Below are positions 46,812 to 50,917 of a stretch of 64,000 nucleotides of DNA, piece by piece. Position numbers and translations under genes: made by a program. The notes below the pieces were generated by a model. That model saw nothing but the letters and a program-made list of their open reading frames with translations, was not told where the DNA came from and did no database searches. Each line of letters opens with the position of its first letter. Within the stretch, counting starts at the first letter, position 1. Source of the DNA: Streptomyces durmitorensis (lineage in GTDB: Bacteria; Actinomycetota; Actinomycetes; Streptomycetales; Streptomycetaceae); NCBI RefSeq assembly GCF_023498005.1, contig NZ_CP097289.1, positions 5,580,001-5,644,000 of the forward strand, in the 5' to 3' direction.

Positions 46812-48842
46812 TCACAGGCCGGTGGGCCCTTCGAGGGCCTGCAGCGTCCCCGCGGGCAGCCGGTCGTTGCCCCAGCTGCGCTCGATGTAGCCGATGATCC
46901 GCGCGATGTCTTCGGCGGGCACCCGCTCCGGTTCGCCGTGTTCGAGCGGGTCGGCGTGGAAGATGTAGAGCCGCGAGGCGAACTGGTCGAACGGCAGGGA
47001 GGCCTCGCCGAACCGCTCGCCGTTGCCCGCGGTGGAGACGACGACGCCGTCGCCCCAGTCCTGGCCGCTGTCGTTGTTCGGGTTGAAGAAATACACCCGC
47101 ATGACGTCCTGCGGATCCGGCGCGGTCCGCAGGATCGTGATCGCGTGCCAGCCGACGTAGCGGGCCGCGCTGTCGGTGACGGCGACGCCGGCCGGCTGCG
47201 GATGGATCAGCGGCTGCTCGCCGTTGTAGGACGGGTGGTAGCTGGTGTGGAACTGCCGCAGGAACTCGTCGAGATCGACCAGGTTGCCGGTCGCGACGTC
47301 GACGTTGATGTGGAAGCCACGGGCCGACCACCAGCCGTGGAACTCGGGGTTGATCCACCGGTGCGGGTCCCCCGGCCGCGCGGCGCAGCGCCGCCCCATC
47401 TCGGCGTAGATCCGGTCCAGGTGGGGCACCACGAGCAGCGATACGGGATCCAGGTCCATCGGCAGCGTGCTCGCGACTCCGCTCTCGCTGTCCTTCGACG
47501 AGATCGGCTGACCCTCGAAGTGCATGAGGACCTCGTCGTCGCGGGCCGCCCAGACCACCATTTGCAGCAGGTAGTCCGGGTCGTTGTACGACCACATCGA
47601 AAGGGCGCGGGCCGACTGGCAGGTGGGGTTGTCGCCCTGGCCGACGCCGAGCGGCTGGCCCAGCATCGAGAGCACCCCGGCGACCAGCCGCGCCCGAGGC
47701 CCCGGCACCTCGCCGAAGACCGTCGTCAACCGCTCCCGCGCGACCGGGGAGAGCTCAAGGGAAAGCTGGCGCCACAGCGCGGGCACGACCGGCGGCTCGT
47801 AGAGGATGCCGCGGTCGAGCAGCAGCGCGAGGCCGTAGATGCTCTGCGCGGTCTGCGGGTGCACGGCCACCTCGATCAGCCGGTGCACCAGTTGGCTGTA
47901 GCGCAGCAGGCAGTTCCGGCCCGTGTCGGAGAGACCGAGCGCCTCACCGACGAGGTAGTCGCTCTCGCGCAGCAGGAACCGGAGCAGTTCCGCGTGGTAC
48001 GGCGACACCAGGCCGGTGTCGTGCATCGCCCGCGCGAACCCCGTCGCCTCGTACTGCAGGCCGCCGGTGTCCATCGCCTCGAGGCGGGAGCGGAAGACGT
48101 CGATGCCCGGGTCGTCCCGGCACGCCTCGGTGGTCCCGAACAGGCTCGTGATGAGCCGGTCGATGCCCTGCCCCGACGACACGCCGAGAGCGACGTCCGG
48201 GTCGTCGCGGTAGACCGCGATCCGGGTGATCAGGGACTGCACCGTCTCGACCTGGATCGGACGCTGGCGCAGGATCCGCCAGATCTCGTCGACCAGGTTG
48301 TCCAGGACGCTGTCGTAACCGATCTCGTCGGCGAGGTGGCGGAACAGGTCCCGGACGAGCTGTGCGGTGCGGCCCTGCTGGATGCGTTCGGCCTCGCTGG
48401 GCGCGCCGAACAGCAGCTCCAGGTTGGTCGCCAGTACCTGGGAGAGGAACTGGCGGGCGTCTTCGGCGGGCAAGGTCGGGTGCGCGAAGTCGCCGCGGGC
48501 GACGGCGAGCATGCGCAGCTCGCTGGCCGCCTCCATGACGACGGTGTCCGCGTTCGTGCTGTGCAGGCTCGGGCCGACCAGCGCCGGGACGAGGATCTCC
48601 GGTGACGCCCAGTCCGTCTCGTGGAAGAGCCCGGCTTCCTCGAGGGCCTGCGCCCTGGCCTGGACCGCCGCGGCGCCGCCCGGCTGCATGAGCACCCGCC
48701 GCAGTGCTTCCAGGACCCGCCGCAGCTTCGTGTGCTTGCCGAACTCGCGGGTCTCGGCCATGGCCTGGATGGCGTCGTCGAGCGAGGCCACGCGCTTGTC
48801 CAGCGTCGTGGCCTCACTGTTGACGTCGACGGTCGGTTTCAA
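46812..48842 (-). CDS. Unrecognised 676-residue protein with a papain-like Cys/His/Asn pattern, paired with an ATP-grasp enzyme
   Basis: I recognise no named family. The N-terminal 400 residues are predicted helical with Arg/Leu-rich repeats. The C-terminal 280 residues carry a sequence arrangement typical of papain- or transglutaminase-like folds: GDNPTCQSARALSMWSYNDP with Cys near residue 408, YVGWHAITILRTAP with His near residue 566, and VYFFNPNNDSGQDWGDG with Asn/Asp near residues 587-592. No signal peptide or transmembrane segment is seen, so it should be cytosolic. The start is TTG preceded by GAGGG; no closer ATG exists before residue 28. It begins 40 bases after the ATP-grasp gene on the same strand, so the two form an operon. 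Confidence 0.75.
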   Translation of the reverse strand: MKPTVDVNSEATTLDKRVASLDDAIQAMAETREFGKHTKLRRVLEALRRVLMQPGGAAAVQARAQALEEAGLFHETDWASPEILVPALVGPSLHSTNADTVVMEAASELRMLAVARGDFAHPTLPAEDARQFLSQVLATNLELLFGAPSEAERIQQGRTAQLVRDLFRHLADEIGYDSVLDNLVDEIWRILRQRPIQVETVQSLITRIAVYRDDPDVALGVSSGQGIDRLITSLFGTTEACRDDPGIDVFRSRLEAMDTGGLQYEATGFARAMHDTGLVSPYHAELLRFLLRESDYLVGEALGLSDTGRNCLLRYSQLVHRLIEVAVHPQTAQSIYGLALLLDRGILYEPPVVPALWRQLSLELSPVARERLTTVFGEVPGPRARLVAGVLSMLGQPLGVGQGDNPTCQSARALSMWSYNDPDYLLQMVVWAARDDEVLMHFEGQPISSKDSESGVASTLPMDLDPVSLLVVPHLDRIYAEMGRRCAARPGDPHRWINPEFHGWWSARGFHINVDVATGNLVDLDEFLRQFHTSYHPSYNGEQPLIHPQPAGVAVTDSAARYVGWHAITILRTAPDPQDVMRVYFFNPNNDSGQDWGDGVVVSTAGNGERFGEASLPFDQFASRLYIFHADPLEHGEPERVPAEDIARIIGYIERSWGNDRLPAGTLQALEGPTGL

Positions 48843-48882
48843 AGCGTTTCCCTCGGGTTGGCCTCCTGCGTCGACGGGGCCG

Positions 48883-50124
48883 TCAGACGTAGAAGTCGAG
48901 CTCTTCCTGCTTCTTCAACAGGTCGCGCATCCGGTAAGGGTCATCACCGAAGAAGTACACCAGACCCCAGTGGGTGCCGAACGCGGTCCTCTTGGTGACA
49001 GTCTCCTCTAGCGGGGTCGAAAGGTCGTGCGACTCGTAGTAGTCGTCGTCCTCGGTCTCCTCCGGGATCTCCAGGTCGCTGACGACGCGACGGCGCGGGT
49101 ACACACCGAAGCAGCCTGCGATCCCGGACGCGTCGACGACCTCGCGCGGGAAGAAGGCGTCTATCTCCTCCTCGGTCGTCTTCGGGTCGAAGGCCAGCAC
49201 AAGACCCTGGTACGCGTTGAACCCGTATGCCCGTTCCAGCAGCTCGAACACCTTGAAGCCCGGCGGCCGGTAGGCGACCTCGCCGAAGTACATCTCGCCG
49301 TCACTGGTGACGAAATACTCCGGGTGCACGAAGCCGAATTCGATGTCGAACGTCTTGATGAGCTTCTCGATCTGCGCAGTGATCTGCGGGCGGTACCGCT
49401 CCAGTTCGGGGGTCGCCGGCACGAACACCGAATATCCCAGCGTGACGTATTCGGAGATGTTGAGGAACTTGATCTTCCCGTTGTGCACCCACGCCTCGAC
49501 CGCGAACTCCCAGCCGTCGAGATGGGATTCCATGAGAAACGGGAACTCCTCGTCCGGAATCGTGTCGACCTCGTCCGGAGTGCGGATGACACGGTGCCCG
49601 AGGCATCCCGCCTTGTCGAACGCCTTGAGATGGATCGGGTCGTTCGGGTCGCCGTCCAGCTTGAGCAGGGTCTGATTGACGCGCTTGAGGAAGCGGGTCA
49701 CGTCGTCCCGGTCGTGGGCCTCCTCGAAGATTCCGACCCGGATGCCGCCGAGTTGTGCGCGGCGCTTCATCAGCGCCTTGTCCCGCAGCAGCATGGCCTG
49801 ACCGTACAGACGCGGGTTGTCGAGGAGGACGGAGTTGATCGCCCCGGCCCATTCGACGGTTTCCTCGTACAGCGGGATCGCGACGTCGACGCCCTCGCTC
49901 TGAAGGGTCTCGGCGATCTCCATGGAGCGGTCGTTGAGCCGTTCGAAATTCCACGGTACGAAGGGGATGCCGTGGTCGACGCAGTATTCCTCGGCCCACT
50001 CCGGCGCCACGACGACGTATCTCCGGTCGAACCGGTCGAGGGCTTCCACCGCGTTGAGACTCCAGCCGAGAAGCGCTACGTAGCCTTTGTCAGGGTTCTT
50101 GGTGGCCGGTTCGCCCTTTGTCAT
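48883..50124 (-). CDS. ATP-grasp carboxylate-amine ligase-like protein
   Basis: A 413-residue ATP-grasp protein of the D-Ala ligase/BacD-like type. Visible core segments: KALMKRRAQLGGIRVGIF (central domain start), PIHLKAFDKAGCLGHRVI (glycine loop and Lys), FLMESHLDGWEFAVEAWVHNGKIKF (nucleotide and metal region), and HPEYFVTSDGEMYFGEVAYRPPGFKVFELL (Mg2+ ligands Glu and the terminal Arg-Pro-Pro-Gly). The N-terminal 100 residues form a Rossmann-like preATP-grasp domain (GYVALLGWSLNAVEAL). Such enzymes join a carboxylate to an amine through an acyl phosphate. ATG 50124 has AAGGAGA eight bases upstream. Codon use is slightly less GC-biased than the neighbours'. Substrates are unknown. Confidence 0.88.
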   Translation of the reverse strand: MTKGEPATKNPDKGYVALLGWSLNAVEALDRFDRRYVVVAPEWAEEYCVDHGIPFVPWNFERLNDRSMEIAETLQSEGVDVAIPLYEETVEWAGAINSVLLDNPRLYGQAMLLRDKALMKRRAQLGGIRVGIFEEAHDRDDVTRFLKRVNQTLLKLDGDPNDPIHLKAFDKAGCLGHRVIRTPDEVDTIPDEEFPFLMESHLDGWEFAVEAWVHNGKIKFLNISEYVTLGYSVFVPATPELERYRPQITAQIEKLIKTFDIEFGFVHPEYFVTSDGEMYFGEVAYRPPGFKVFELLERAYGFNAYQGLVLAFDPKTTEEEIDAFFPREVVDASGIAGCFGVYPRRRVVSDLEIPEETEDDDYYESHDLSTPLEETVTKRTAFGTHWGLVYFFGDDPYRMRDLLKKQEELDFYV

Positions 50125-50230: not shown

Positions 50231-50917
50231 ATGAAGACCATCGGCCTCATCGGCGGCATGAGCTGGGAGTCCAGCGCCGAGTACTACCGGCTGCTCAACG
50301 AACTCGTACGCGAGCGCCTTGGCGGCCTGCACTCCGCCCGCTGCGTGCTGTACTCCGTCGACTTCGCCGAGATCGAGCAGCTCCAGGTCGCGGGGGAGTG
50401 GGAGCAGGCGGGTGAGGTGCTCGCGCGGGCGGCCAAAGGGGTGGAGGCTGCGGGCGCCGATCTCGTGCTCATCTGCACCAACACCATGCACAAGGTCGCT
50501 GAACAGGTCCAGGAGGCTCTCTCCGTGCCTCTCCTGCACCTCGCGGACGCGACAGCCGACGCGGTGCTGCGCGGCGGCCTGCGGCGCGTGGGGCTGCTCG
50601 GCACCGCGTTCACCATGGAGCAGGACTTCTACCGGGAGCGGCTCGCCGCGCGGGGCCTTGAGGTGCTGGTGCCGGACGCGGAAGGGCGCGCGCTCGTGCA
50701 CCGCGTGATCTACGAGGAGTTGTGCCTCGGGGAGGTGCATGCGCGGTCCCGTGTCGGGTACCAGAACGTCATCGCCGATCTCGTACGAGAGGGAGCCGAG
50801 GGTGTGATTCTCGGATGCACGGAAATCGAGCTGCTCATCGGGCAGGAGCACAGCCCGGTGCCGGTCTTCCCGACGACCAGGCTGCACGCGGAGGCGGCCG
50901 TGGCGGCAGCCTTGTAG
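50231..50917 (+). CDS. Aspartate/glutamate racemase family protein
   Basis: A 228-residue cofactor-independent amino acid racemase of the aspartate racemase type. The opening KTIGLIGGMSWESSAEYYRLLNE is the family signature. The two active-site Cys residues are in LVLICTNTMHKVAEQV and GVILGCTEIELLIGQE. It would interconvert the enantiomers of Asp or Glu or of a related amino acid. The gene is divergent from the ATP-grasp operon with a 106-base shared region, so D-amino acids as ligase substrates are worth considering. Confidence 0.92.
   Translation: MKTIGLIGGMSWESSAEYYRLLNELVRERLGGLHSARCVLYSVDFAEIEQLQVAGEWEQAGEVLARAAKGVEAAGADLVLICTNTMHKVAEQVQEALSVPLLHLADATADAVLRGGLRRVGLLGTAFTMEQDFYRERLAARGLEVLVPDAEGRALVHRVIYEELCLGEVHARSRVGYQNVIADLVREGAEGVILGCTEIELLIGQEHSPVPVFPTTRLHAEAAVAAAL

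Follow-up and report, generated by a model that had tools for sequence, protein, structure and literature searches.

Organization of the locus

The window analysed here is a stretch of 64,000 nt from Streptomyces durmitorensis (GCF_023498005.1, NZ_CP097289.1, forward-strand positions 5,580,001 to 5,644,000). It contains two neighboring genes that encode a predicted ATP-grasp amide ligase and a larger partner protein with a predicted papain/calpain-like domain; both genes and all their parts described below are on the minus strand. The ligase gene (48883..50124) encodes 413 amino acids (aa) between an ATG start and a TGA stop. It is followed, after an intergenic gap of 40 nt (48843..48882) with an AGGAGG ribosome-binding-like site inside, by the partner gene (46812..48842; TTG start, TGA stop), which encodes 676 aa. 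According to the open reading frame (ORF) list, both ORFs are located on one strand where an initial annotation, made from the sequence alone, had placed them. The partner is composed of an N-terminal all-helical part (residues 1–364; 47751..48842), recognized from the secondary structure of the full-length model and yielding weak helical matches only, and a C-terminal papain-superfamily domain (residues 365–665; 46848..47750) that is predicted to be nearest to calpain protease cores.

The start codon of the ligase is ATG 50124, with AAGGAGAAACGGTCT immediately upstream. A longer ORF reaching 50259 was rejected as the gene because in 47 of 79 loci the 45 codons upstream of the ATG are interrupted by an in-frame stop, and the mean identity of this stretch is 13%. 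The first codon of the partner is TTG 48842, and among the 39 loci aligned to the first residue TTG is used 28 times, GTG 10 times and ATG once. The third-position GC content is 0.867 for the ligase and 0.947 for the partner, with neighboring genes ranging from 0.752 to 0.962; the less GC-rich codon use previously ascribed to both genes is thus retained for the ligase but not for the partner. Upstream of the ligase, the word TACGGT is present in 25 of 107 stretches compared to ~3 in shuffled ones, at a −10-like position in those seen.

The predicted ATP-grasp ligase

As judged from its sequence, the first gene encodes an ATP-grasp ligase in which the catalytic residues are conserved. The protein matches Pfam ATP-grasp_4 with E 1e-05 and 25.6 bits, slightly below the model cut-off of 27, and its profile matches the solved structures 3vot, 4wd3 and 4dim at E 0.0017–0.0046, these being a phosphoribosylglycinamide synthetase (E 0.0017) and two L-amino acid ligases (E 0.0022 and 0.0046). 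Twelve positions picked from ATP-grasp motifs (D115, K116, K155, K167, E199, E206, E210, H267, E269, E282, R286 and G289) are identical in 26 of 26 sequences, and these conserved Lys, Glu and Arg residues bear out the nucleotide and metal motifs reported in the initial annotation. The family is sharply bounded: in 199 Streptomyces genomes the true copies are found at E ≤2.5e-277, while the next best ATP-grasp protein is found at 1.7e-14. The mean identity of the ligase amounts to 0.88 within Actinomycetota, 0.81 between the two phyla and 0.80 among the gammaproteobacterial sequences. A 19-residue hydropathy scan revealed no membrane or signal stretch in either protein of the pair (maxima 0.96 and 1.16).

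The partner protein and its predicted active site

No profile search placed the partner in any family, in agreement with the earlier statement that it belongs to none known. A search at E 1 against Pfam (Peptidase_C2 and C1 included), NCBIfam and PADLOC gave no match for the protein, PDB sequences gave none either, and a Pfam search with 23 relatives (48–94% identity) returned no peptidase family, the scattered weak hits having their best E of 0.035 to a cell-division family. The predicted fold of the C-terminal domain resembles the calpain protease core over ~212 residues. The Foldseek E-values for the domain are weak; its closest listed fold matches are animal calpains, and the first 18 VIA rows are all calpains. 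In 23 sequences, 90 of 311 columns are invariant in the C-terminal part, compared to 57 of 364 in the N-terminal part.

According to PMC10318531, members of the papain superfamily (clan CA) have their catalytic Cys where the core helix begins, and in the predicted secondary structure of the domain, helix 44–56 starts at Cys44, which is Cys408 of the full-length protein (codon 47619..47621) and the predicted nucleophile. On the strands that follow, a His and a third polar residue (Asn, Gln, Asp or Glu) appear in the canonical order of the superfamily, with His566 (47145..47147) on domain strand 198–211 and Asn587 (47082..47084) immediately after domain strand 217–222. A candidate oxyanion-hole residue, Gln402 (47637..47639), is positioned six residues before Cys408; the equivalents in papain are Gln19 and Cys25. 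All 54 domain sequences retain Cys408, His566 and Asn587, and 107 of 107 paired full-length partner proteins, with pairwise identities down to 46%, retain them together with Gln402. The numbering of the triad in the initial annotation is exact (codons at 47621, 47147 and 47084), and the papain-like order that it had noticed is corroborated by the predicted secondary structure and the fold match, the closeness of the residues being judged from topology alone. Cys408, His566 and Asn587 are thus predicted to be arranged as a papain-type active site, and the second gene encodes a modeled papain/calpain-like domain with an invariant Gln-Cys-His-Asn set. The assignment of the two enzyme classes, an ATP-grasp ligase and a papain/calpain-like Cys enzyme, is made with high confidence.

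Pairing of the two genes

The ligase and the partner form one evolutionary unit. The main locus set consists of the best 80 of at least 532 loci and is for that reason dominated by near relatives; in it, the ligase gene adjoins the partner in 80 of 80 cases, with the ligase cut by a contig end in L056 and present as two frames in L093. In the latter, a Nocardia testacea record, the ligase reading frame lies in two pieces (L093:8734-9949), owing to a sequencing error or to decay. Both genes are long enough to be compared in 106 of 108 loci, of which 100 show the ligase followed by the partner on one strand with a gap of −32 to 146 nt, while five have the genes on opposite strands and one has the reverse order. 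Furthermore, the pairwise distances of the partner and the ligase correlate with r 0.93.

Co-occurrence extends beyond adjacency. In 199 Streptomyces genomes, the three with the partner are the same three that encode the ligase at E 2.5e-277 or better, and in the phylum sample the two genomes that encode the partner are also the two with a ligase match of E 1e-249 or better, the samples being overlapping and non-identical. Among 56 chosen genomes, the ligase is present in 36 of 36 with the partner (best copy E 1.1e-234 or better) and in 0 of 20 without it, these 20 being the ones listed of 210. What speaks against a strict operon is that 8 of 36 gammaproteobacterial 20-kb loci contain the partner without a ligase gene, the respective genomes encoding the ligase elsewhere. 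A functional link between the two proteins is nearly certain, and the lack of conservation in other genomes, which would have told against the pair as a system, is not what adjacency and co-occurrence show.

No third conserved gene was found among ORFs of at least 90 aa in 81 loci: the ligase and the partner each form one ORF family with 80 loci by a crude caller, and the next family, scattered in position and strand, is present in 18 of 81 loci. Within the same scope, the surroundings of the pair show no conserved carrier protein, tailoring enzyme or exporter. Among smaller ORFs (at least 20 aa, within 1 kb on either side, 102 loci), the top fragment recurs in only three other loci of a different lineage, and no graspetide-type precursor peptide gene is found beside the ligase. 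The sigma-factor gene of the window is matched beside the pair in 3 of 80 loci, and its hut genes and racemase have no match there in any of the 80. The aspartate/glutamate racemase at 50231, previously suggested to supply a D-amino acid, is therefore unsupported in that role.

Distribution and history

The partner has at least 2625 relatives with the window protein as query, at least 2950 with an Oceanimonas query and at least 2195 with a Seongchinamella query. Among the matches listed, the best 120 of each of these sets, partner proteins are called hypothetical or uncharacterized where named, and the hosts include Streptomyces, Amycolatopsis, Saccharopolyspora, Pseudonocardia, Nocardia, Rhodococcus, Halomonas, Marinobacter and Rubinisphaera, as well as metagenome-assembled genomes labeled Acidobacteriota, Phycisphaeraceae and Polyangiaceae. 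The spread of the pair is patchy: of 197 genomes from the class, 2 have a credible partner (an additional match with E 8.8e-4 over 77 residues was taken as chance), and the partner is present in 3 of 199 Streptomyces genomes, 11 of 398 genomes of the Oceanimonas phylum and 34 of 244 genomes of one gammaproteobacterial order. Only one plasmid record and no phage record was found.

In a quick tree of the partner, 78 actinobacterial sequences are on one side of a branch with support 98, next to Oceanimonas, and midpoint rooting places them inside the gammaproteobacterial sequences. The mean identity of the partner is 0.60 both between the two phyla and among the gammaproteobacterial sequences. 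Because of this nesting and the equality of the two identities, the sequences fit a single transfer into Actinomycetota and a subsequent spread, a history limited by the long branches of the tree and by sampling according to similarity to the window. In one Streptomyces locus, the other strand carries a second partner fragment (L022:20436-20783; residues 512–627, 89% identical). Remnants of ligase and partner copies are present in G936:C45 and G960:C16, and extra copies therefore seem to decay.

Some genomes contain a second type of partner. In three loci (L114:12207-13514, L116:12938-14245 and L169:11272-12579), a second ligase form of 435 aa, ~75% identical, is encoded on the strand opposite to the second-type partner. 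In two others (L117:6006-11935 and L170:8989-14006), the second-type partner ends an ABC transporter operon that in our reading is potABC-like (polyamine uptake), Pfam showing generic transporter domains. It is also found close to genes for a carboxylate-amine ligase of the GCS2 type and an aspartoacylase/desuccinylase-like protein (L113:7974-12563 and L119:9947-15763), in L113 with Memo-like and radical-SAM genes on its other side, and in L120:8411-11944 directly 3′ of an M17 aminopeptidase-like gene that spans two overlapping frames. The proximity of solo partner copies to amide-related genes in a few genomes agrees with amide metabolism, albeit anecdotally.

Proposed function and alternatives

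We propose that the two proteins form a self-contained amide module in the cytosol. The ligase would use ATP to convert a carboxylate into an acyl-phosphate, to be joined to an amine as in L-amino acid ligases. Cys408 of the partner would attack that amide, or a derivative of it, yielding an acyl-thioester, and the acceptor of the acyl group would then be water, in an amidase reaction, or another amine, in a transfer. In this manner, the two enzymes could control how much of one amide compound is present or complete its synthesis in two steps. That they cooperate in this way is a proposal to which we attach about even confidence. The initial annotation likewise had a ligase and a Cys-dependent acyl enzyme act jointly on an amide; enzyme classes and pairing uphold this part, whereas its D-amino acid component is unsupported, the racemase not being conserved beside the pair. 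Because the unit works in hosts from Streptomyces to Halomonas without a conserved third gene, it probably acts on common small molecules (amino acids, polyamines or short peptides) and not on a lineage-specific protein.

A protein-tagging cycle, with an amino acid or peptide attached to a protein by the ligase and taken off again by the calpain-like partner, has a eukaryotic parallel in tubulin tyrosine ligase and vasohibin. Calpain and papain domains usually cut peptide bonds, the large helical N-terminal part could hold a protein target, and the ligase is as highly conserved as described above. However, the pair crosses phyla without a conserved target gene alongside, which would require either a near-universal target or tagging of the partner itself, and we consider this cycle unlikely. 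The calpain-like fold and the tight pairing could also be explained if the partner were a protease acting in the control or maturation of the ligase or of a different protein, with the product made by the ligase alone. This is improbable, as the number of invariant C-terminal columns exceeds, in our judgement, the apparent need of a protease with one cut site.

Acyl transfer in the biosynthesis of an excreted or secondary metabolite, following the BtrJ/BtrH pattern, would have a precedent in the combination of an ATP-grasp enzyme with a papain-like acyltransferase and would suit the patchy spread in Streptomyces. The absence of a conserved carrier protein, tailoring enzyme or exporter and an identity that we judge far above that usual for such clusters make it just as improbable as a maturation protease. 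As a patchy, transferable and self-contained two-gene unit, the pair could also serve in phage defence or another conflict, with a protease as effector, but PADLOC gave 0 families for the three proteins searched, plasmid and phage records are as scarce as noted above, and evolution appears slow compared to defence genes in our judgement; such a role is very unlikely. Finally, a coincidental triad in a protein that is not a Cys enzyme would be in line with the lack of a sequence family and the weak Foldseek E-values, yet is barely credible in view of the invariant tetrad, the helix starting at Cys, the canonical positions of His and Asn and the calpains in the first 18 VIA rows.

A further reading is advanced tentatively: a previously undescribed bacterial make-and-break cycle, in which a dedicated ligase and a dedicated calpain-like Cys enzyme would hold one amide conjugate at a set level. 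The conjugate may be a free compound, or may be attached to the partner itself or to a protein of near-universal occurrence. Equally tentative, and jointly with this cycle, the module would have been transferred between phyla and held at core-gene-like identity.

The pair is carried by thousands of bacterial genomes and metagenome contigs, as judged from the number of partner relatives, with its larger protein unnamed in the family libraries tried. Two genes, a sharp boundary, no further required neighbor and a mutable nucleophile make it easy to probe. It could lead to a small molecule or a protein modification not described before, and the partner adds a bacterial branch near the calpains.

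Comparison with known systems

L-amino acid ligases of the BL00235 and RizA type are among the best solved-structure matches of the ligase and share its conserved Lys, Glu and Arg. However, they match at E 0.002–0.005 only, and the present ligase is a closed family with a sharp gap to other ATP-grasp proteins. The partner is similar to the calpain core and cluster I of the papain superfamily (clan CA) in fold, in a core helix that begins at the Cys, in the His and Asn on the following strands and in the Gln six residues before the Cys. It differs from calpains in lacking a Pfam match, in its own helical N-terminal part, in the NPN that replaces the NPW of calpains and in always co-occurring with an ATP-grasp ligase in the genomes tested.

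BtrJ performs the ATP-grasp ligase step of butirosin biosynthesis. It is followed by a papain-like acyltransferase, BtrH, a succession that resembles the present pair; the butirosin enzymes, however, act on a carrier-protein-bound substrate within a large gene cluster, and no such gene is conserved here. Amidoligase operons, reportedly catalogued by Iyer and others in 2009, likewise mix amide ligases with peptidases. Our literature search found no paper on the pair; that catalogue was outside the search, and absence from print is not established. According to PMC10318531, BtrH and glutathionylspermidine synthetase/amidase provide precedents for a ligase acting with a papain-like acyltransferase or amidase. 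The latter also combines an amide ligase with a papain-like Cys amidase, but as one fused protein with a CHAP domain according to the same source, whereas here two ORFs (80 of 80 loci) and a calpain-like domain are found. Beside these systems, the pair stands as a module without a name whose proteins belong to known superfamilies; it is more widely spread and more tightly paired than the initial annotation could know.
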